Assembly (NCBI GenBank): GCA_006503475.1 | Contig: RSEH01000417.1 | Location: 1-21,771 of the forward strand | DNA: 21,771 bases | Direction: 5' to 3' | Origin: Stentor roeselii | Taxonomy: Eukaryota; Ciliophora; Heterotrichea; Heterotrichida; Stentoridae | In this document: positions 1 to 21,771 of the stretch, one piece after another | Position numbering within the stretch: the stretch's first letter is position 1 | Layout of the letters: the number at the start of each line of letters is the position of its first letter | Notes under the pieces: model-generated | Seen by the model: only the letters and a program-made list of their open reading frames with translations | What the model was told of the DNA's origin: nothing | Database searches by the model: none | Position numbers and translations under genes: made by a program

Positions 1-7
1 ATTTATA

Positions 8-1989
8 ATGTTTTTTTGGCAGTGTAGGAATGCAGTGTCTTGCTTGAAAGTCATCAGAAAGAGCTTTTCAACAGCTGATGATAGCTTTTTTAATCTTTCA
101 ACTGATCTGAATCCGAATTATCAGAGCTTCGAGGAGGTACTCACAGATAGTCTGATTCATGTAGATAAATCACTTCTGATAAAAGATATTATAAAAGAAA
201 GGGCAGTTCTATTGACTAGGCCAAGGAGATGGGGAAAATCACTTAACATACAGATGATTGAGAGTTTTTTCCAGCCAGATCTTTCACCAGAAGGTATGAT
301 TATAGAAGATAAAGTTAAGAAAGAAAAATTCTCTAAGATGCTCATTGGCCGTGAATTTATGCCCTTCAATCCAATTACGAGAGAAAATAAGGAAACTGCG
401 ATTATTGATTTGCAAGGTACAGTTCCTGTTGTTTCTCTAACGTTTCCTGGCAGTGTGGAAAATTCTGAATTCGGAATAAGAGAAGCATTTAAAGATATAA
501 TCAGGGATATCCTAGAGAGGCATCGTTATTTATTAACATCAAATGCAGTAATTGGAACTTATGGTGAGGAATTATTCAAAAAATTTTTAAACGACAATCG
601 AAATTTAGAGATAACTTATCAAAATATTGTAACAATTCTGGAATTGATAATAATCGCTTTAAATCAGCACCACAATAAAAAGCCGATATTACTAGTTGAC
701 GAATATGATAAGACTTTGCTCTACCTCATGACAAAGAATCCTGATTCATATGAATATGGGCTTGAGATATATAATCAATTCTTTTCCGTCATCAAGAAAA
801 ATAGCCAACTACTTCAGCTATCTATTTTTACTGGTGTCACTCGAATATCCAAAGCAAACCTCTCTTCAATTAACAATATTCGCCATGATTCAGTTTGGAG
901 TACAAAATTCGGAGAACATTTTGGTTTCAGTAATGAAGAACTTGATGCTGTTATTGATAAAGCTCATTCAATTACTCCCAAAAAGTTTGATAAAGAAGAT
1001 GCCAAAAAAAAATCACAGAATTGTACTACGGATATAAAATCAATAATAAAATGATGTTCAATCCATTTGCAGTAATGCACTGTATTTATGCAATCATTTC
1101 TGAAATGAATCGACCTTATAAAAACTATTGGGCGATTTCGGGAAATACTGATATACTTGTTGATGCATTACATAAAGTTCCTACCCGTTCTTATATTGAC
1201 AAACTATTCGAAACAGGTGAAGTAAAGTTCATAGCCAAAGATGGAACTGAAGTAGATAAAATTTCAGTTGATGAACAGGCATTTTTGACAACATTACTGG
1301 ATGCAGGATATTTGACTAAAGCAAATAAAGACAATCATTACAAAATTCCGAATCATGAAGTAAGATGTGAATTCTATGAAAAGTTAAATCCAATATGGGT
1401 CAATAGAGTGAAAGACATTTACTTTAAAAGCATCATTTCCAAAGATAAATTCGAAAATCCAGAAACATTTTTACAAATATTTAAGAATAGAGTTCTTAGT
1501 TTTATAAAAGGGGTAGCAGAACCTGAGGCTCATTTTCAAAATTTAATTTACTTAAGTCTCATCAAAACCAATATGGAAGTAGAACAAAAAAAACTTACAG
1601 AGATGGAATCAAAGGCTAACCTTGTGATTTATCCTTTAAATGATTTAAAAAAACTTGAAGATACTGTTTATATAATTGAAATTAAGTTTAAAAGCAGCAA
1701 AAGTCGAAAAGATGTTTTTAATGAAGGTCTGGTTAAAATATTTGAAAGATACTATGCTGAAAATGAAATGATTAAAAATGAAAATTTGAAAATTGTAGTT
1801 CTGAGGGTTGTGACTTTTGGGTATAGAAAGTCATTAAAGTGGCAGATGTCAATAGTTGAACTAAAATTTGCAAGAGAAAATTTGAAGAAGGCAATTGAGT
1901 TATACAGACCAAAGTTTACGGGCTCTAAAAAATGGAAAAATGCTTTCGAAGATATAGTTGGGTTTTCTTTTAGTAATAAGATAATCTAG
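8..1989 (+). CDS. AAA-ATPase-like / PD-(D/E)XK nuclease family protein, interrupted by a frame change
   Basis: Two reading frames together encode one protein of the prokaryote-type family with an N-terminal AAA-ATPase-like domain and a C-terminal PD-(D/E)XK nuclease domain (Pfam AAA-ATPase_like plus PDDEXK_9). The first frame runs from ATG 8 to TGA 1052-1054. It shows Walker A RPRRWGKS (residues 71-78), Walker B ILLVDEYDK (D231, E232) and the family motif FTGVTRISKANLSSINNI. The second frame, open from 1012 to TAG 1989, picks up exactly where the family continues (YYGYK, then NPFAV) and ends in the nuclease core with EIK (E codon 1678-1680, K codon 1684-1686). The frames join by a -1 step at a nine-A run (1004-1012). 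A 15- or 16-nt intron cannot produce this shift. The frame is open to the window edge, so the true start may lie upstream. The role is unknown; such genes are often mobile or horizontally acquired. It may be a pseudogene, a -1 frameshift gene, or a homopolymer sequencing error. Confidence 0.85.
1004..1012 (+). other. Nine-A run at the frame change of the nuclease gene
   Basis: The upstream frame reads GCC AAA AAA AAA TCA here and soon ends at TGA 1052. Re-reading base 1012 gives ATC ACA GAA and continues the conserved protein in the other frame. The site fits an A AAA AAA slippery heptamer, a one-base loss, or a homopolymer miscall. Confidence 0.75.
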
Positions 1990-2216
1990 TTTAGGAATTT
2001 ATATAAGTTTTAAATCTCTTTGGTCTAGTTAATAGAATCGTTTTTCTTGTGAATTTCCTTTATAAGAAGTAATTTATTCATGTGCATAAAATTCTCTTCA
2101 ATAATTTCAATAAATATCTGAATTATTTTCGAGAGAAACTAAACAAACATCTCCAACATAAAACAAACCTAATCCTCCCAAATTCCTTAAACATCCAAAA
2201 CAAAAAAATACGATAA
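1990..2216. other. Intergenic region with C/A-rich leader
   Basis: No gene is seen in these 227 bases. The first 28 or so bases after the nuclease stop resemble, with mismatches, the sequence after the stop of the second copy at the right edge. The last 76 bases before the coiled-coil gene (2141-2216) are strongly skewed: by hand count 21 C and 1 G. They probably hold the promoter and 5' leader of that gene. Confidence 0.6.
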
Positions 2217-5200
2217 ATGTCTGAAAAAGGAGCTAAAAGTAAATCAGTATCAAAGAAAAAAGTAATAAAAACTCAGAAACCCTGGGATGACCGATTCTGG
2301 ATCTCCGACAAGCCAGTCGACGAGAGTTACTTCGAAAAGATGCGTAATCCAAACCTAGGCCGTGTGAAAGAAGAAGAAAAATACGCTCGTAACCGAAATC
2401 CTGGAAAAAACCCAGAATTTTCACTGATCGAGAAGCAAAAGCGTAACGACAAGTCCGCTGAATTGAAAGGTCCTCCAGTGATGATAACGATGGAGACTCT
2501 AAATGACCTGAAGTTAAAACTAGATGAAGAATGGGAAAAGCAAGGAATTCCTCATTATTTCAGAGAAACCTTCAGAACCACTGTTTATTCCTTGTCAAGG
2601 CACAAGGCAGTCGCTATCATTTCCCGGGAACTCGAAGAACTGAAAAGAAAAAAAAGTACTGTGCACCTTGCAATGGAAGCCGTGAAAGCAAGAGAAGAAG
2701 GACTGAAAAACATCAAAGAAATGTTAGAATATTTTTCAAGATCTTCTGGATGGGAAAATGAAGAAAGTCTTTGCCAAGAAGTGATTGAGTTGTTGAATGC
2801 TTATCGGATTTTAACTTTAAATGCTGTGGAAAGCATCATCAAGTGGAAGGAGCAGCTGGTTTATGCTCTTATCTTGAATAAACATGACAGCATCGGCAAG
2901 CATAAGACTCTTGTCTTTGAATGGGCAGGGGAAAACTACATCCATAAGATGAGGACTGACTTGAACTTTTTATTTTCTTCTGACTTTCGAAAGATTTTTA
3001 CTTTTGAGAATGAAAAAGACCCTCTGCTTATTTTTCCCTCGAAACTTCCTGAAAAAAAAGGACCTAAACCGAATGAAAATACGAAAATTCTCAACATTCC
3101 TGCAATGTTGCAGAAACGAGTCAAACTCGCTCATAACTACATCATGGACGAAGACATTGAAGAACAGCTTAAAACTGTTCAAGTCGACCACAAGACCAAC
3201 AAAAAAGCAGCTCAAAAAATCACTGAAGAACTTATCGACTCATACGCTGAAGGTGTTATAAAAAATATCGCAGAAGATACACATAAAGAAGCAAAACAAA
3301 AGCAAAATGAAGAAACGGCGAATAACCTCAGAAATGCTCTTATCGAGGAAATAATAGCGAAGGACTTTAAAGATATCTGTAAACTTGCATATGCAGAAGC
3401 CACTGAACCTCATATCAAAAAGTTCTCTGAAGGTATCATCGATGTACTACTTGAAAAAGAAATCAACAGGACTGTTGAAGCTGTTGCTAAAGAAGAACTT
3501 CAAAATGCGAAAGTCCAGCAAAAGGAACAAGCGAGAAATGAAGTAAAAAATAAGAAAGAAAAAGATGCTGCTGCTAAAAAAAGAAGGGAAGAAGAACTCG
3601 CTCTTGAAAGAAAACTTGCTAAAGAAAGGGAAGAAAATGAAAAAAGACGGAAAGTTGAGGAACTTGCCAAGAAGATGAAAGATGAGGAAAATAATAACCT
3701 TGCTAGAGAAATATTGGAAAGTTTGTTGAAAGAAATTCATGTTGATATTGAAATCATCGTCAGCTTCTTGTATAAAGAGCTTCTTGATGAGAGAAACTTG
3801 AAGAATAAAGAAAAAGAGATGAAAGACTTGGAAGATGCTCGAAGGAGAGAAGAAATGAAAAATCTTGAAGAAGCTAAGAAAAAGGAAGAAATGGAAAGAT
3901 TGGCTCAAGCTAAAAGACTTGAAGAATTGAAGAAAAAAGAAGAAGCTGAAAAAATCGCTGAAGAAAAAAGATCTCAAGAAATGAAGAAAAAAGAAGAAGT
4001 CGAAAAAATGACTGAAGAAAAAAAAAATCAAGAAATGAAGAAAAAAGAAGAAGCTGAAAAAATCGCTGAAGAAAAAAGAATTCAAGACTTAAAGAAAAAA
4101 GAAGAAATCGACAAACAAACAGAACTTAAAAAACTCCAGGACTTGAAAATGAAAGAAGAACAAGACCGACTAAATGAACTCAAAAGACTCGAAGATCAAA
4201 AAAAAAAAGAAGAACTCGAAGAAGCCAAACGAAAAGCTGATCAAAAACGTCAACAAGAAGAACAACTTCGCAGTGTAAAAGCCGAGCAGTTGATGAACAG
4301 TCAAATCGCCGAAAACATTCTAAGAATCATGATCGACGACGAAATCAAATCATTAAACCTCAGTCTTCTAGCAGAAGAAGAAATAAAAAAAGAAATCGAC
4401 AGAAAACGCCAATCTTTAAGAAATGAAGAAGAAAAGGCTCAGTTGGCAAGAAAAGAAAAAGATTTCGAGAATCAGAAGCTTTCTGAACAGATTTATAATG
4501 ATATTGTTGATAAACTACTTGAAAAAATGACTCTTGATAAACTTGCGGATAAGATGGTTGAAAGGGTTGGGTCTTTTAGAAACTCGATTACTATCAATAC
4601 AGGTATTCTTAAAAATACAACTTTTGACCCTGATGATTATGCTGCTGATGAATTCACTCCTGGGGAACATTCTCCTAGAGAAGTTTTCGAACCTTCTCCG
4701 ATTAATTCTAGGAGAGAAGATAGTCCTTTTAAAATAGATGAACTTAAGTATGAGTTCGCCAAGGCTAGTGAGTTTTCGAATGTTAGTGACTTGGTTTGGG
4801 TGCCTTTTAAGATTAGTGAACATAGTCTTGAGTATATTTTTCATGAATACCAAGCTAATATCGCTATTCCATTCACTAAAGTCATGCCAACAGTAAAACA
4901 GCTTCTAAAAGAAACCTACAAAGGAATCGACCCCTGCTGGTACTGGGGTTTAAAATCAAACAAAATATTAGGAGCATTGATATTTTCTCTAGATTTTATG
5001 ACAGACGAGCGTAAAATAATAGTTCACCATTTATCCTGCATAAACGGTGACTTAATGGAGCCATTCATCCAAGCAGCTTCTGAATATTTATTTGAAATTG
5101 ACAGTTGTCAAGAGATCAGAATCAACATGGTAATTCCATTAGGCACTGAACTTCCAAGAGAAATAAAAAAATCATTCAATTCTTTAAAGTTCAAATGGAA

Positions 5201-6233
5201 AGCTTCTGCTGACAGCGGAATTCAAGGATGTGAAATGAACGTCATGGGAAAATTCCGAGAATCCTCAGTTCTTCCTCAATCCCGCAAAAGTGAACTTAAC
5301 AACTTTTCATTAAAATCTGGATGTTTAATCGAGCCGACCTTATCAGGCGTTAACTCAAATAACAAGACAGATGAAGAAATGATTCACTTTGGAAATAGAC
5401 AATGTCAAATCAACAGTGTTCTAAATTTATTCGGAAAATTAGATAAAAGTGGAATAAGTCTTACTCAAAATCATCATAATCGCCTACAAGAAGAAGTTTC
5501 AGGTATTCTAGAAATAATCAACTCAACTGATAGTTTCAACTTTCCAAACATCGTATCACTAGTCTCAGAAAATCCATCAGCCGCTTCAGACTTCTTAAAA
5601 AAGTTCAACTTTTTAGATTTCACAACCACCCAAAAGTCATCAATTTCAGTTCTCGAGTTAAAATTCAAGTTCATTTCATTCACATCAATAAAGCATCAAG
5701 TTGAAGACTCCCTTTTCAAATTCATGCGTTTTAAATCTCCAGATATTCAAGTAGGAAGCGAGTTCCACATATTCAACATTCCAACAAGTCAACAAAACAT
5801 TCGAGCAGTCTTCATTTCTTTCGAAGGTTTAAAAGAAGAGCTAGAAACAGACCTTCGCCGTGAAAAGACAGATTTATTCTACAAGGTCGAAAACTTATTA
5901 AAAAGTGTGAGTTACTCTCAAAGTGATTCAACAGCATTTTCCGTGCCTTCCTTCAGTAAAAAGGCGAGCTGGATTATAAACTGGATGCAAGGCTACGAAA
6001 TTCCTCCTCAACGCGATGAAAAAGTCTCGCAATTTATCAAGAAAAGCTTTGAAACTATTCGAATCAATGCTGAAGTCGCGGAACCTGCAGCAGGAACACT
6101 TGAAGTTGAAAAAGGTTTTTTATTTGACCATAGTTTCATCTTCTGCTTGACCCATACAGGGCTTGACAGGGTGTTAGACATGCCGCTTTTCGTTTGTCTA
6201 GTCGAAAAGAAAGACTGGGTGTTAGCTAATTAG
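2217..6233 (+). CDS. Large coiled-coil protein with GNAT-like and degenerate serpin-like C-terminal domains
   Basis: This 1338-residue protein matches no named gene I can recall. Residues 1-240 are basic, then helical. Residues about 330-830 are Lys/Glu-rich coiled coil with six 18-residue repeats (570-677) and several inserted helical segments without charge runs. Residues about 860-1012 resemble a GNAT acetyltransferase fold (GALIFSLD, then KIIVHHLSCI, then EIRINM). From about 1045 the sequence follows the second half of a serpin: FSVPSFSKKASW (1241 on), a hinge-like RINAEVAEPAAGT (to 1294), then FDHSFIF (1303-1309) and a terminal hydrophobic strand. The reactive loop is about seven residues too short for an inhibitor. 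There is no signal peptide or membrane segment. It is probably a cytoskeletal or ciliary structural protein (inference). ATG 2217 is the first ATG after a C/A-rich leader. Its TAG stop overlaps the stop of the opposite UBE2S gene. Confidence 0.85.
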   Translation: MSEKGAKSKSVSKKKVIKTQKPWDDRFWISDKPVDESYFEKMRNPNLGRVKEEEKYARNRNPGKNPEFSLIEKQKRNDKSAELKGPPVMITMETLNDLKLKLDEEWEKQGIPHYFRETFRTTVYSLSRHKAVAIISRELEELKRKKSTVHLAMEAVKAREEGLKNIKEMLEYFSRSSGWENEESLCQEVIELLNAYRILTLNAVESIIKWKEQLVYALILNKHDSIGKHKTLVFEWAGENYIHKMRTDLNFLFSSDFRKIFTFENEKDPLLIFPSKLPEKKGPKPNENTKILNIPAMLQKRVKLAHNYIMDEDIEEQLKTVQVDHKTNKKAAQKITEELIDSYAEGVIKNIAEDTHKEAKQKQNEETANNLRNALIEEIIAKDFKDICKLAYAEATEPHIKKFSEGIIDVLLEKEINRTVEAVAKEELQNAKVQQKEQARNEVKNKKEKDAAAKKRREEELALERKLAKEREENEKRRKVEELAKKMKDEENNNLAREILESLLKEIHVDIEIIVSFLYKELLDERNLKNKEKEMKDLEDARRREEMKNLEEAKKKEEMERLAQAKRLEELKKKEEAEKIAEEKRSQEMKKKEEVEKMTEEKKNQEMKKKEEAEKIAEEKRIQDLKKKEEIDKQTELKKLQDLKMKEEQDRLNELKRLEDQKKKEELEEAKRKADQKRQQEEQLRSVKAEQLMNSQIAENILRIMIDDEIKSLNLSLLAEEEIKKEIDRKRQSLRNEEEKAQLARKEKDFENQKLSEQIYNDIVDKLLEKMTLDKLADKMVERVGSFRNSITINTGILKNTTFDPDDYAADEFTPGEHSPREVFEPSPINSRREDSPFKIDELKYEFAKASEFSNVSDLVWVPFKISEHSLEYIFHEYQANIAIPFTKVMPTVKQLLKETYKGIDPCWYWGLKSNKILGALIFSLDFMTDERKIIVHHLSCINGDLMEPFIQAASEYLFEIDSCQEIRINMVIPLGTELPREIKKSFNSLKFKWKASADSGIQGCEMNVMGKFRESSVLPQSRKSELNNFSLKSGCLIEPTLSGVNSNNKTDEEMIHFGNRQCQINSVLNLFGKLDKSGISLTQNHHNRLQEEVSGILEIINSTDSFNFPNIVSLVSENPSAASDFLKKFNFLDFTTTQKSSISVLELKFKFISFTSIKHQVEDSLFKFMRFKSPDIQVGSEFHIFNIPTSQQNIRAVFISFEGLKEELETDLRREKTDLFYKVENLLKSVSYSQSDSTAFSVPSFSKKASWIINWMQGYEIPPQRDEKVSQFIKKSFETIRINAEVAEPAAGTLEVEKGFLFDHSFIFCLTHTGLDRVLDMPLFVCLVEKKDWVLAN
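3924..4247 (+). repeat. Six 54-bp tandem units coding 18-residue repeats
   Basis: Six in-phase units of 54 bp encode variants of ELKKKEEAEKIAEEKRSQ. Units one (3924-3977) and three (4032-4085) are nearly identical in DNA, which points to recent duplication or gene conversion. A more diverged unit lies just upstream (3870-3923). The repeats extend a charged single helix or coiled coil. Confidence 0.85.
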
Positions 6234-6772
6234 TTTCTTCTAAGCCACTTCTTCAGTTTTTCAATGTGAGTCTGTGCTCGCTTCGCTGGGGAAAAAACTT
6301 GCTTCGGCATCGCGTTGATTGAGGTGTATAGTTGAGCGTGTTTGAAGTACATGTTGTAGTTTTCCATGAACATTCGCCCGGCTTCCTCGTTTAAAGCAGA
6401 GTCCGGAAAGGGCTGTATCAAAAGACATCGAATCACGTTGAAAATATTTGAAAGTGACCAGTTTTTTGAATTCCAGTCTTTTTTCAAGGTATTGACACAA
6501 ATTTCTCCACCGTTTGAAATGTTTGGATGGAAAATTTTAGTCAAAAAGTATCCTTTTGGAGGTGTTGTTGGGAAATCTGCTGGAAACTCCAGTTTGCATT
6601 TAAATATCCCGCCGTGATAAGGAGTGCCTTCGGGACCTGTTATTTCGACTTGGAAATCTAAGAAGTTCTCTTCGTTCATTATCAACTTGATGCCCTCGAA
6701 GGACTCTTGGCCTAATCGACTGATCTGCTTTGTAAGCATGTTTAAAACACGAGGGTTCAAGTCGATGTCCAT
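6230..6772 (-). CDS. UBE2S: Ubiquitin-conjugating enzyme E2, UBE2S type
   Basis: This 180-residue E2 carries ubiquitin on a cysteine and passes it to substrates or ubiquitin chains. The UBC fold is complete: GPEGTPYHGG, PPKGYFLTKIFHPN (HPN at 82-84), and ICVNTLKKDW with catalytic Cys92. The stretch PKGYFLTKIFHPN...GEICVN...SALNEEAGR is characteristic of UBE2S (E2-EPF), the K11-chain E2 that works with the anaphase-promoting complex in animals. The protein ends KKWLRRN, resembling the LRRL tail that human UBE2S uses to dock on APC/C. ATG 6772 is the only in-frame ATG upstream of the fold. The TAA stop (6232-6230) shares bases with the TAG of the convergent coiled-coil gene, and the start lies 13 nt from the start of the divergent K+ channel gene. 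The family call is firm; the APC/C role is inferred. Confidence 0.93.
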   Translation of the reverse strand: MDIDLNPRVLNMLTKQISRLGQESFEGIKLIMNEENFLDFQVEITGPEGTPYHGGIFKCKLEFPADFPTTPPKGYFLTKIFHPNISNGGEICVNTLKKDWNSKNWSLSNIFNVIRCLLIQPFPDSALNEEAGRMFMENYNMYFKHAQLYTSINAMPKQVFSPAKRAQTHIEKLKKWLRRN

Positions 6773-6785
6773 TATAAACTTTAAT
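6773..6785. promoter_or_regulatory. 13-nt head-to-head spacer with TATAAA
   Basis: Only TATAAACTTTAAT separates the UBE2S ATG (minus strand) from the best channel ATG (plus strand). It contains TATAAA. Promoter elements of each gene must lie in this spacer or inside the neighbour's coding sequence. An alternative channel ATG at 6765 would make the two genes overlap. Confidence 0.5.
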
Positions 6786-8678
6786 ATGTTCGAGAGCTTT
6801 AGGGTTAAAACTATTTCCAATCAGAAGGATTCGGCTTTGGAAAGGAAAAGTCTTAGTGGGTCCAGCTGGCAGAATATCGCTTTTACTTATGATCCTGAAC
6901 CTGCTGGAGATACTTTGAAGTTTAGGCAGGATCCTTTGTATCGATCTGTTAAATTCATTATTTTTCCGGATGATACTTTTAAGATTGTTTGGGACTTGGT
7001 AGTTCTCTGGTAATTTCTAATAAGCCTAGTGCTCTACTCAGTTATTCTCGTCCCCTACCGAGTCTCATTCGTTGAAAGCAATTCAAAATCCTGGAACATA
7101 TTCGAGTTAACCATCGACCTTCTATTCATAGTCGACGTCCTAATAAACTGTTTTTCCGCTCAGATAAAAGAAGAAGTCTTAATAACCGATTTGCGTTTGA
7201 TTCTAAAAAACTACTTAAAAACCTGGATGTTATTCGACCTTCTCTCCGCAATTCCATTTTCATTCATCCTAAGCAGTACAAAAGCCAGCAGTATGGCGAA
7301 ACTTGCGAAGATTCCCCGAATAAACCGTTGTTTTCGGTTCTCAAAAATGATCCAAGGTTCAAATTTGATTGAAAAATTGTACTCGTTTAAATGTTTCAGG
7401 TGCTTTTTCGATATTTCACTTCGAGGAAAGCGAATTTTGTACTTTTCTCTGGCGTTTTGCATGGTTTGTCATTTGTTGACTTGCCTTTGGCATTTTATTT
7501 CGAAGTTGAACCAGGAAAGGAACTGGGTGATTAAATACGATTTTTTGGATAAAAGTGAAAGTGAGTTGTATATGGCCAGTCTTTATTGGGTGATTACGAC
7601 TTTGGCTACTGTTGGGTATGGCGATATTACTCCTGATAATAGTATTGAAAGAGGGTTTTGCATTTGTGTTATGCTTTTAGGAGTGTTTTTTTATTCTTAT
7701 ACTGTCGGAATTATTACTAGTATTATGGCTGATATGGATAGGATGAGGTCACAACTTGATAATAAAATGTTTATTCTTCAAGATATCACTCGCATGTTTA
7801 ATATTGATAAAGAATTTGAAAAGAGGATTAGGAAGAACTTGAAACTTAATACTTCGTCGAATCATACTGATTATACTGAGTTCTTGAAGTGCTTGCCAAG
7901 AAGAATGGCCCTTCAACTAAACTTCATAATAAACAAGAAACTCGTTGAAAAAGGAAACAAGTTCTTCGAAAAGAAACCCTTAGCCTTTATTTCCCAGATC
8001 TTAGAAAACCTAAGATCAGTAAAACTTCCAGCAAAAGAAATAATTTTCTTAAAAGGTTTCATAAGCAGCGAGATTTATTTCATAAGCAAAGGCCACGTGA
8101 GCATCTACAACATTTTCGACAACACAGAAGTATCTCTCTTAACTCTGGTCGAAACCGAGTACTTTGGCGATGTCGGAGTCATGCTCGGCGAGCCTCGATC
8201 AGTATCAGCAAAGACTTTAAAATACTCAGAACTTCTTATTTTAACTAAAGAAGACCTTTTCGATGCACTTAGAGGATTTGAAGAGTTAAAAGAAGAAATG
8301 ATTAATGAAGCGAAAAAGAAAAGAATGGAATTTTCTGTGAAATTTGAAAAGTTTTCTCGAGAATTTCAACTTAATAGAGAACTTGTCCATGGTTTTCCTG
8401 GTAATGGAAGAAATCGTTTTGATCTTGATGAGATGGATCTGGATGAAGAGGATAAGTTTGAAACGTTGGAAGTTAATGAAAGTCTTTCAAATGTTAATGA
8501 AGTTATGAGAATTAAAACTGAGGAAAAATTGTCGACTATTAGAAATGTTTTGTCGAAAAAAACTCTGAAGATGATTGACCCGGGTATTGATATTGTTACT
8601 TTGAAGGAGAAGGTACAGGTGATTGAGGATGAAATTTTAAATTTAATGGTTAAGTATCAACTTACATGTGATGTGTAA
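6786..8678 (+). CDS. Six-TM voltage-gated K+ channel with cyclic-nucleotide-binding domain (EAG/HCN/CNG superfamily), spliced
   Basis: The coding parts are 6786-7009 and 7025-8678 (625 residues) after removal of a 15-nt intron. The intron lies in the first membrane segment; splicing creates VLCLVLYSVILVPYR, matching the S1 region of EAG-type channels. Segments S1-S6 follow, with a weakly charged S4 (KIPRINRCFRFSK) and selectivity filter TVGYGD at 270-275, which predicts K+ selectivity. A C-linker leads to a cNMP-binding fold beginning near residue 410, with phosphate-cassette-like FGD (455-457) and EPRSVSA (R466), so ligand binding is possible. A Glu/Asp-rich and coiled tail follows. ATG 6786 avoids overlap with UBE2S; 6765 is an alternative start. 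It belongs to the same superfamily as the channel at 18306-20171, which has no intron at this site. Confidence 0.92.
7010..7024 (+). other. 15-nt spliceosomal-type intron
   Basis: GTAATTTCTAATAAG begins GTA and ends AG. Unspliced, it puts TAA in frame at 7011. Removing it joins TG to C, giving a Cys codon, and restores a continuous channel S1 helix. Its length matches heterotrich introns. It is the only intron I can support in the window. Confidence 0.92.
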
Positions 8679-16672: not shown

Positions 16673-17371
16673 TTATTTTGTGGGAAGAAAATTTTGAGAT
16701 TGATGGAAGTTTTGTTGAGTTCTTTGAGGATGCGGGTTATTTTTAAACTTGGATTATTGGAGAAAGGGTTTTTTTAAAGGGAGAAGGGTTTAGTGGGTTG
16801 TTTGAGGAGTTTAGTGTTATTTTATTGTGTGAGGAGGGGTTTTTTGGATTGGTTTAATTTGAGTTTTTTCAGGGTTTTTAGAATATTTGGATTTGGAGTT
16901 TTCTTAAGGTATGATTTTTAGTTTGGATTAAAAAGTTTTGTTGATTTAATGGCTGCGGGTGAGAAAAAATGAAGAGGTTTAAAGGATTGGATTAGAGAAA
17001 ATCGTTGGGAATGAACTTGTTCTCTGTTGATAGAGATGATAGAAGATAGGCTTCAATGTGTTCACAAAAGAAGTAACGTTGAATTAAAAGATATTTTTTT
17101 CTTTAGCTTGGGAAATTTTGAGTGTTTGTTTATAAGTATCATTGTAAATCTAAACTTAGTTATCCATTAAAAAGATAGTTTTTTCTTTAGCTTGGGAAAT
17201 TTGAGTTTTTCTTTATAAATATCATTCTAAATCTTAACTTATTTATCCATTAATTTCTTGAGATTCCTTCTTTTCTTAATAATTAAAATTTTTTTTTTTA
17301 TAATTATCTACATTCTCTTATAATCTTGATTTTCATTAAATTACTAATGAAACTATAAATTAACTACTAAC
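16673..17371. other. Noncoding region upstream of CK1 with strong G skew
   Basis: No gene is seen on either strand in these 699 bases. The part next to CK1 is G/T-rich on the plus strand: 16681-16860 has about 59 G and 3 C. It includes four GGG runs at 16766-16797 that could form a G-quadruplex. The distal part holds a tandem duplication (17087-17253) and very AT-rich DNA near the end of the membrane-protein gene. It probably contains the CK1 promoter. Confidence 0.65.
17087..17253. repeat. Tandem duplication, units of 84 and 83 bp
   Basis: Unit one (17087-17170) and unit two (17171-17253) both begin AAAGATA and end TTATCCATTAA, and share CTTTAGCTTGGGAAATTT. They differ at a handful of bases and one T. 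No conserved ORF runs through them. Confidence 0.9.
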
Positions 17372-18305: not shown

Positions 18306-20171
18306 ATGATTAGCAAAGAAATTCTTCACATCCCATCAGAGTCCAAATCCAAATATCTCCCCATCTGGCAACGAGTTCGTCTAAAGCTAAAAGCTAAATA
18401 CTTCTTAAAAAAGTTATCAAAAGATGAAGACAGAACAGAAAAAACAGTAACCCAAGGCACTTTAAAGTTCGAAGACGAAGACGAAGACTACCTAGTCCGT
18501 CGATATTCAATGATAATGACAAGCAAAGCAGACGAGTCAATAAAACTCGAAAAAACTCCCCCTTTTGTATTCCACCCAGAATGGAAATCAAAAAAATTCT
18601 GGAACTTTTTCCTTGCCCTGGGTCTTTTCTACACCGCAGCAGTGATGCCGTTCGTAATGGCTTTCATCGAAACCGAAAAATTCGATTCCTGGTTTTACAT
18701 CTCAATGATTCTCGACCTTCTCTTCATGTTGGACTTTTTTGTGAACTGTCTGACAGCTTTTTACAACAAAGAAGGAATTTTAATTATAAGTCGCAAGGAA
18801 ATTCTTTTAAACTATTTGAAAGGTTGGCTTATTTTAGACTTGCTGGCATCGATTCCTTTTACTTTTATCGAGTTTTCAAATGATAACTCTCAGCAAGATT
18901 CAAAATCTTTAATCCGTATTATAAAACTTCCAAGAATTTATCGTCTTTTGAGGATTTCCAAACTTTTTAAAGTAGTTTCTCAGTCTCGCTATGGTTTCTT
19001 TGAGCAGCTTCGGGATTACTTGAACTTCAAGCACAGTTCAATGAAACTATTGACATCTTCAGCGATAGTGATAATATGCATTCATATATCAGGCTGTTTT
19101 TGGTTTTACATTGCAAGGATCAACGATTTCGACGAGACCACCTGGGTGTATCGTTTGAAGTACATGGATAAAAGCGTCGACAGTCAGTACCTGACCTGCA
19201 TTTACTGGGCGATCACTACAATGACCACTGTCGGATATGGAGATATTCACGCTTTTAACAATTTAGAAAGAATTTTCTGCATCATCTGGATGGCTGTCGG
19301 CATTTTCTTCATTTCTTTCAGCATCGGCAGGCTAGCCTCGATAATCAACACTACTGAAAGTAAAGACAATCTTCTTCTTCATAAACTTTCAGCGATTGAT
19401 GAGTTCTGCTCTGAAGCCAACATCTCGAAAGACCTTCAGAAAAGACTGAGAAGGGCTCTTAAGTTCTCGACTGATAAACAAGGATGGTCCTGGGGCCAAA
19501 AGGATATTTTTTTAAGTGAACTTCCAAGGGCGCTTAAATATGAACTTGCTATGAATATGTTTCAAGGAGCTGCGAAAAAGATTGAGTTTTTTGTTAGTCA
19601 TGAACAAGCTTTTGTTGCATCGATTGTACCGTTGTTGCAACCGATTTGTATTCAGGAAGGCGATAGTGTTTATAAGGAAGGGGAAATCGCTGATGAGATC
19701 TACTTTGTGACTAAAGGAAGAGTCACTTATTGCTTTGGAGTGGAATCGCATTATGTTGCTTGGGTTCATGTCGGGAATTACTTTGGAGATATTGAAGTTG
19801 TTATGAATAATGCGAGGATTTTTAAAGCACTCGCTGTTCAGTATTGTGAGTTGTTTATCATGAATAGGGATTTAATTGAAACTATCATTGAAACTTTTCA
19901 TGAGGTTTGGGAAGAAATTTGTAATGAAGCACTTGCTAGGTTTAGACTTTATCAGAAGGCGAAAATTAAGATTGAAGAAATGCAGAAGTTGAGAAATTCT
20001 GGAAAACTTAGCAAAATGAACTTTCATGAGTTTAAACAGATTGTAGAGCAGAAGTGCAGAGGGAGTTATGATGATTTGAAGAAGAGTGAAACTCAGCATA
20101 TTAAGGATATGGTTTTGAAGCTTGATAAATTGATTGCTGAGCTGAGTCATGAAGAAGGTAATAAAAATTAA
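18306..20171 (+). CDS. Six-TM voltage-gated K+ channel with cyclic-nucleotide-binding homology domain
   Basis: This 621-residue protein has the EAG/HCN/CNG layout. An acidic cytoplasmic N-terminus (EDEDEDY near 58-64) and the pre-S1 motif FVFHPEWKSKKFW lead into S1-S6. S4 has regularly spaced charges (RIIKLPRIYRLLRISKLFK). The filter TVGYGD at 308-313 predicts K+ selectivity. The C-linker includes LPRALKYELAMNMF. The cNMP-like fold has YFGDI (492-496), but the following cassette reads ARIFKAL (R504), without the Ser/Thr that normally follows the phosphate-binding Arg. Cyclic nucleotide binding is therefore doubtful and the domain may be of the EAG homology type. A coiled tail follows. Unlike the channel at 6786-8678, it has no intron. 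Confidence 0.95.
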   Translation: MISKEILHIPSESKSKYLPIWQRVRLKLKAKYFLKKLSKDEDRTEKTVTQGTLKFEDEDEDYLVRRYSMIMTSKADESIKLEKTPPFVFHPEWKSKKFWNFFLALGLFYTAAVMPFVMAFIETEKFDSWFYISMILDLLFMLDFFVNCLTAFYNKEGILIISRKEILLNYLKGWLILDLLASIPFTFIEFSNDNSQQDSKSLIRIIKLPRIYRLLRISKLFKVVSQSRYGFFEQLRDYLNFKHSSMKLLTSSAIVIICIHISGCFWFYIARINDFDETTWVYRLKYMDKSVDSQYLTCIYWAITTMTTVGYGDIHAFNNLERIFCIIWMAVGIFFISFSIGRLASIINTTESKDNLLLHKLSAIDEFCSEANISKDLQKRLRRALKFSTDKQGWSWGQKDIFLSELPRALKYELAMNMFQGAAKKIEFFVSHEQAFVASIVPLLQPICIQEGDSVYKEGEIADEIYFVTKGRVTYCFGVESHYVAWVHVGNYFGDIEVVMNNARIFKALAVQYCELFIMNRDLIETIIETFHEVWEEICNEALARFRLYQKAKIKIEEMQKLRNSGKLSKMNFHEFKQIVEQKCRGSYDDLKKSETQHIKDMVLKLDKLIAELSHEEGNKN

Positions 20172-20762: not shown

Positions 20763-21675
20763 TTTTATATTAAATTTCATTGGGATTACTAATATAGTGA
20801 TTGAGAAAGCGTTAAAGAATTAACACTAGTTCATTAGGTCAATTAGTTATGATAAAGCTACTTGATTAAAATTTTATCAAAGAAAGACGCTTTTTGATCA
20901 TTATAATAAGTATACTCATAATAAAAGTTTTAGGTGTATCTAAAAGCAACCCTAGTTATTAGAATGTATCTCATTAATTGAACTATTTTAGAAATAACTA
21001 CCTTCCCTTCTAGTGTTATTCGGATAAGACTAATAATTCTCTCAGAATTTTTATAATAAGAGAACTACCTGGAAAAATTTCTCTCAGCAGTCATTTCATT
21101 AGCGGAATAATCATCGGGTCAAAATGATATTTTAAAGAATGCTTATTTTTTAGTAATCTTTTACTAAGATCAGATCTGTTCAATCATCCAGAGAAAAAGT
21201 TTATAAAGAGTTATTTTCAACGAGATTATTAATGATTGTATTTAACCTGCTCAGACAATATCGGTGTTAAGGTCTTTATATCATCAGTTAAGTCTTTAAG
21301 TCATCAATCCCAGAGATTCAATTTTCTGTTAATTTTCTTTTTTAAATATTCTCTGTAAGAAGACAAAGATTTAATTACGAATTTTATTTTCAGTAATTTA
21401 GCTATTATCATTTACTCAGCTTTACTTCCACCAGCTACAGCATTTATATTCAGCTTTTTCAATGTTTTCTTTTTTTCAAGACTTCAATTCTTTTACCTTC
21501 ATCTTTATCAGCCATTTCTTCAATTTAAAGATATCTCCAGGTTTTAACTGTTCTTTTTGATGAGTATCTTCCATGTCCTTTCACTGGTTCTCTGAAGATT
21601 AAAGTCTCTCTTATCATGAGGCCTTATTATATGGAAACTTGATTGGAGAGTTCAAAACCTATATAAATTGCTTAA
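20763..21675. other. Noncoding right flank with broken short frames
   Basis: No intact gene is seen. On the minus strand, 21229-21574 holds several short frames with coding-like composition that are interrupted by TGA or by shifts at A runs. On the plus strand, two imperfect 20-bp units related to GTCTTTATATCATCAGTTAA lie near 21270-21310. The region is downstream of the second nuclease-gene copy and may hold decayed sequence. Confidence 0.5.
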
Positions 21676-21771
21676 CTAGATTATCTTATTACTAAAAGAA
21701 AACCCAACTATATCTTCGAAAGCATTTTTCCATTTTTTAGAGCCCGTAAACTTTGGTCTGTATAACTCAAT
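21676..21771 (-). CDS. 3' end of a second AAA-ATPase-like / PD-(D/E)XK nuclease gene copy (partial)
   Basis: Read on the minus strand from the window edge, the sequence encodes 31 residues beginning IELYRPKFTG and ending FSFSNKII, then TAG. It is identical base for base to 1894-1989 of the left-end nuclease gene, and the identity continues 2 nt past the stop (98 bp in all, 21674-21771 against 1894-1991). The following 28 or so bases are similar but diverged, then unrelated. The rest of this copy lies beyond the window. Confidence 0.95.
   Translation of the reverse strand: MELYRPKFTGSKKWKNAFEDIVGFSFSNKII

Follow-up and report, generated by a model that had tools for sequence, protein, structure and literature searches.

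Proteins of the bacterial DUF1703 type, which occur on plasmids of Tepidibacter, Persicobacter and Parabacteroides, combine an AAA-ATPase_like domain (PF09820) with a nuclease domain, PDDEXK_9 (PF08011). In passages of one report their role is described as unclear, and the endosymbiont Cardinium cCpun is stated to hold 25 or more DUF1703 paralogues, which recombine and whose role is unknown (PMC6387759). The same passages cite a DUF1703 gene in the Medea factor of Tribolium and set apart the Wolbachia CidB/CinB-type toxins, resembling those of cytoplasmic incompatibility, as being without an AAA-ATPase domain and different around the active site (PMC6387759). PF09820 is also listed for the defence proteins RADAR (RdrA), PARIS1 and Old-tin, according to part of another source (PMC10952713). 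Here, we describe a family of this type in the heterotrich ciliate Stentor roeselii. The window under analysis is a complete contig, RSEH01000417.1 (C368; 21,771 bases), of an assembly that totals 44,391,514 bases over 522 contigs, and a member of the family lies at each of its ends, copy W on the left and copy X, inverted, on the right. We consider it moderately probable, from sequence comparisons, that the bracketing of the window is an effect of the assembly at C25-C368-C144 and that the gene belongs to a heterotrich family of mitochondrion-directed ATPase-nucleases of bacterial origin, whose location and role we infer.

The ciliate family and the bacterial DUF1703 proteins show full-length collinear homology, and both have an RPRRxGK Walker A motif, a DEYD Walker B motif and the C-terminal motifs II, III and IV. 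In Walker A, the ciliate copies have W where the bacterial proteins have F. Compared with three of the four aligned bacterial proteins, they carry about 30 extra N-terminal residues, the Roseburia protein having a longer N-terminus of its own; unlike the bacterial proteins, they have an incomplete active site in 18 of 32 copies. As in Cardinium cCpun, there are tens of divergent paralogues with recombination among them; those of Cardinium are bacterial genes, with signal peptides predicted for 10 of 25 in the passages cited, whereas the ciliate genes are nuclear and have mitochondrial-type N-termini (PMC6387759). The Medea gene, as presented there, is likewise a bacterial-type DUF1703 gene in a eukaryotic genome, but it forms part of a maternal-effect selfish element (PMC6387759); the ciliate family is not known to behave in this way. 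The bacterial relatives were drawn from a plasmid collection; a plasmid of Megaera polyxenophila (Rickettsiales) encodes one with 28% identity (E 5e-29). These comparisons suggest a bacterial origin of the family. A scan of prokaryote genomes with an eight-member family alignment, A1, matched 560 pattern sites, none of which was confirmed. With copy A and with the bacterial relative, no PADLOC-DB family reached E <= 0.01, nothing useful came from NCBIfam or from a sequence search of solved structures, and no recognisable description of this family in ciliates was found in open-licence papers.

A multicopy family had been proposed in a preliminary description of this DNA, and the copy count bears it out. 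There are 46 PF09820 matches on 26 contigs, 45 of them above the cut-off, counts that are lower bounds; a control search of 14 known genomes gave no match. By manual count, 28 of the 46 matches lie in open frames of at least 600 amino acids without a stop inside the match, and at least two entries on contig C144 are pieces of one decayed copy. We conclude that this heterotrich ciliate has about 45 predicted nuclear genes of the bacterial DUF1703 type, clustered and partly dispersed.

Copy W (positions 8 to 1989, plus strand, as are all its parts given below) encodes an AAA-ATPase_like / PD-(D/E)XK protein of the DUF1703 type. PF09820 was found in all eight members of A1, and W matches it with E 7.4e-31. 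As a correction to the earlier description, which took 8 to 1989 as the gene, the frame is open at 8 to 1054 and again at 1021 to 1989 and is broken near a run of nine A residues (1004 to 1012), where copies A and B on C144, which are uninterrupted (661 and 659 amino acids), are open. The N-terminal 22 codons (8 to 73; MFFWQCRNAVSCLKVIRKSFST) resemble a mitochondrial presequence, the first 20 residues including four K/R but no D/E. The translation shows Walker A as RPRRWGKS (218 to 241) and Walker B as DEYD (698 to 709); the corresponding residues of copy A, R71 to S78 and D231, E232 and Y233, are invariant in A1, and in copy J the last D of DEYD is N. Between the two motifs, residues 151 to 210 (458 to 637 in W) form a hypervariable segment, the least conserved part of A1 (mean pairwise identity 0.36 and 0.25). 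Overall identity between copies A and B is 72%, but in this segment it is only 0.33 and 0.10. The PF08011 domain is supported by profile-profile alignment across motifs II, III and IV; hmmscan finds it in only two of the eight A1 members (best 1.7e-9) and not in the C-terminal frame of W. Motif alignment places motif II of W at 1618 to 1620, with N instead of the catalytic D, and motif III, E-I-K (ExK), which is also read from the translation, at 1678 to 1686; in copies A and C the motif II residue is G. W, whose motif IV residue is K, thus lacks both the complete D ... ExK site and the open frame expected of an active PD-(D/E)XK nuclease.

The N-terminal charge pattern is shared across the family. 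At least three K/R with no D/E in the first 20 residues were found in 26 of 31 family N-termini, compared with 3 of 31 other open reading frames (ORFs) of the window and C144; the N-terminus of C158a, whose start is not visible, was left out. Many family N-termini end in RFST, RNFS, RNFT, RYFT or RNFA, and ends of this type resemble mitochondrial processing sites. In composition and ending the N-terminus resembles a presequence, which may point to import into mitochondria.

The mirrored ends of the window match as had been claimed. The reverse complement of 21674 to 21771 is identical to 1894 to 1991 (plus strand) at 98 of 98 bases, comprising the final 31 codons, the stop TAG at 1987 to 1989 and two more bases, and an exact match of this length is far beyond chance. 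The 3' flanks diverge as quickly as had been described: likeness continues for about 28 further bases at lower identity and then ends, giving an extended alignment of 121 nt at 97%, or 126 columns at 96%. A short 3' stretch (1990 to 2018, plus strand) is common to W, A, B and X, and the likeness of X and B to other copies ceases at its end. The 3' flank of X (21646 to 21673, minus strand) resembles the copy A flank, with which it agrees at 28 of 30 bases, more closely than the W flank, and the next 1.4 kb of this right-hand flank has no match in C144 or in pieces of C25, C49 and C187. Two loci with an identical coding end had been proposed. The identity is exact, but the right-hand locus, copy X (21674 to 21771, minus strand), is only a coding end cut off at the contig end, 21771, and the window is therefore uninformative on the rest of that copy.

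The neighbouring contigs suggest how these ends arose. C25 (141,916 bases) terminates in the family upstream region and, exactly, the first 15 bases of the window (1 to 15, plus strand). Since it holds the missing promoter or upstream part of the left copy together with this overlap, C25 lies to the left of the window. On the other side, the window terminates inside the minus-strand copy X, without its 5' end, and C144 (78,653 bases) opens inside a minus-strand copy, C, without its 3' end. The last 77 bases of the window (21695 to 21771) overlap the left end of C144 with five mismatches, which fall at 1918 to 1944 in window numbering. The end of C144 corresponds to position 1970; the next base, 1971, is one at which copies A and X differ, and the arithmetic of the ends is 98 = 77 + 21. 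A similar geometry was seen in C393 (18,737 bases), both ends of which lie in inverted PF09820 copies and open with the same exact 77-mer, the end regions being 90.5% identical over 825 nt; a shared 77-mer is what an assembly graph with K = 77 would give. In C286 and C252, family matches begin 14 and 9 bases from the left ends. Among 21 contig ends, 9 of 15 from family-bearing contigs terminate inside the family, compared with 0 of 6 others; the 15 are a non-random set, as C368 and C144 had already been identified, and PF09820 matches near their ends led to the choice of C393 and C337. These placements agree with the earlier suggestion that, on the right, the contig broke off where a repeat began. 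Both window ends lie in family copies because the assembly broke there, and X and C are probably one gene split by the assembler. The description of the window as bracketed by inverted copies is right in that such copies stand at both ends, but the bracketing is mostly an assembly effect and itself ordinary, the look of any contig between two inverted repeats, with C393 and C337 alike. C368 would then be the assembly piece between two inverted family members, in each of which the assembler halted; the left copy's upstream part would lie at the end of C25, the right fragment would most likely be the 3' end of the copy that opens C144, and C25-C368-C144 may form one chromosome region. Stentor has the same telomere unit as Blepharisma. 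Repeats of CCCTAACA were seen at the start of two other contigs, C26 and C70, and this is the telomere unit of the heterotrich Blepharisma according to part of a published account (PMC9942806).

The closest relatives of W are on C144 (A 87%, C 87% and B 83%), and W and A share a segmental duplication. Positions 1 to 7457 of the window correspond to C144:11724-16556, where 1 to 4431 and 6996 to 7457 align and 4432 to 6995 is absent. In this pair, identity is 94 to 99% over the 2.1-3.0 kb flank and 81 to 95% across gene blocks. The informative sites of W, A and B fall in clusters, to a degree that 0 of 5000 permutations reached. All 23 differences between A and C fall in the first 349 bases, and the next 1621 are identical up to the contig end; since the identity reaches that end, it may reflect conversion or repeat collapse. 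The copies are mosaic, as the proposal of a gene-converted family implied for the exchange of sequence. For recent spread or conversion at the window ends, the mosaicism stands, but the 98-base identity cannot date any spread, because it reaches the contig end and has five conflicts with C144, its probable continuation. Across 15 comparisons, with W taken as two halves, the ratio of nonsynonymous to synonymous change (dN/dS) was 0.25 to 0.72, indicating overall constraint on the predicted proteins; one 60-codon block between W and A reached 1.43, with few synonymous changes. On sequence evidence, the family grows through segmental duplication, with sequence exchange between copies. Beside W lies a 1338-amino-acid coiled-coil gene (2217 to 6233), with a decayed partial duplicate beside A (C144:13775-16076) in which no ORF of at least 120 amino acids is left on that gene's own strand. 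Two more family copies on C144 (61012 to 63631 and 68717 to 71341) are in direct orientation about 7.7 kb apart and 91% identical over 2.6 kb, and the first has an in-frame stop.

Several observations weigh against an assembly origin of the bracketing and a mitochondrial ATPase-nuclease family. X and C differ at 5 of the 77 shared sites, so that if they are one gene, one of the two contig ends must carry an error. The overlap with C25 is 15 bases, not 77. Among 21 terminal 77-mers in the sequences compared, exact recurrence is seen only for the two ends of C393 (mutually), the right end of C368 (with W) and the left end of C144 (with A), and K = 77 is drawn from one exact pair and one geometry. 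The presequence rule is a composition rule of our own, with the start set at a conserved methionine; 7 of 31 (F, G and C20, plus four copies on C476) have another in-frame ATG before it, and with that start 5 of the 26 fail the rule, which reduces the passing N-termini to 21 of 31, still against 3 of 31, without lowering the odds. Complete D-ExK is found in only 14 of 32 copies, B, D, E and L among them (two rows of the 32, C476a and C251, have no residue aligned at motif IV). The structure model is weak (predicted local distance difference test, pLDDT, 60.6), and Foldseek with this model gave no match at E <= 0.001. The many AAA+, origin recognition complex (ORC) and mitoribosomal chains in the VIA structure list were taken as common fold only.

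As an alternative for the ends, X and W could be separate, recently gene-converted copies whose 98-base identity is real biology and owes nothing to the contig end. The mosaicism between copies, the run of 1621 identical bases after 23 differences in A and C, and the combination in X of coding bases of the W type with a 3' flank like that of A are what conversion would produce. However, the identical stretch stops at the contig end, its limit coincides with the end of C144 at a 77-base offset (98 = 77 + 21), and the A/C identity likewise reaches a contig end, so that we regard this alternative as possible but doubtful. It seems to us very improbable that the gene copies are transposable units, each with fixed borders, and that such units inserted to the left and right of the window in opposite orientations. 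The many PF09820 matches would suit such a unit, as would the loss of likeness of X and B at nearly one position, roughly 29 nt past the stop, and the likeness of C and A for only about 77 nt upstream of the position of window base 1, with divergence beyond. Common borders fit constraint on promoters and 3' ends equally well, though, and the likeness of A to B extends about 360 nt upstream, so the 5' borders are not fixed. In the complete copies A and B, neither terminal inverted repeats nor flanking direct repeats nor A-tails went beyond what shuffled flanks gave (an inverted match of 12 bases in copy A, where shuffling reached 11 at most, lies away from the borders), and the W-A duplication took along several kilobases of adjoining DNA. 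The proposed mobile family therefore shows no mobile-element signature in these copies, its closest relatives lying in one neighbourhood with duplicated flanks. A retrocopy was rejected, as no A-tail follows A or B.

For the protein, the N-terminus could instead be a start under structural or regulatory constraint, or it could direct the protein to some other compartment. Residues M1, W4, N8, S11, I16, R17 and K18 are invariant in A1, and presequences are usually less fixed. Against this, the distant members C88, C251, C176, C119 and C33 keep the charge pattern and the R-x-F/Y-S/T/A ending while other residues differ, which makes this alternative unlikely in our view. Less likely still is a eukaryotic selfish or toxin-like system in which degenerate copies serve as antidotes. 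Medea offers a precedent within the DUF1703 family, as cited in part of the source (PMC6387759), and the mixture of complete and incomplete active sites, the hypervariable block and the ranking of CidB/CinB as the top nuclease matches of the structure model point the same way. Fold similarity, however, says nothing on function, and dN/dS was below 1 in all 15 comparisons.

Under the preferred reading of a mitochondrion-directed family, the protein would be made in the cytosol, taken into mitochondria by its basic N-terminal helix and cut near R-x-F-S/T. The AAA+ part may use ATP for loading on, or sensing, nucleic acid or nucleoprotein, with residues 151 to 210 as a putative variable contact surface. 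The C-terminal domain would cut in copies with a full active site, and the other copies may be regulators or decaying. A more far-reaching idea, which we put forward as speculation of low probability, is that some 45 proteins, derived from a bacterial ATPase-nuclease, form a diversified, mitochondrion-directed arsenal in which paralogues swap the recognition segment. Such an arsenal would protect mitochondria from nucleic acids that are foreign or selfish, or would itself be a selfish agent acting on mitochondrial DNA, and inactive copies would be its regulators. With about 45 nuclear copies, N-termini of mitochondrial type and a hypervariable ATPase block, the family offers a concrete place to test the role of DUF1703. 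If import holds, a large and variable nuclease-like family would be aimed at an organelle, and conflict over, or defence of, mitochondrial DNA in ciliates becomes testable.

Other features of the window were also recorded. TGA is absent inside the main ORFs, and each of the 14 window ORFs regarded as genes has TAA or TAG as its stop; the triplet TGA seems to be used very rarely in this coding DNA. In Blepharisma stoltei, UGA is read as tryptophan, according to part of the published account (PMC9942806); such a reading was rejected for this DNA on the absence of TGA from the main ORFs and the TAA or TAG stops of the 14 gene ORFs, a pattern that fits a heterotrich other than Blepharisma. Two cyclic-nucleotide-binding ion-channel genes (PF00520, PF00027) lie within the 21.8 kb, at 7029 to 8678 and 18306 to 20171. 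Finally, a tandem pair with a unit of about 85 nt, 90% identical, is found at 17083 to 17253, outside the long ORFs.
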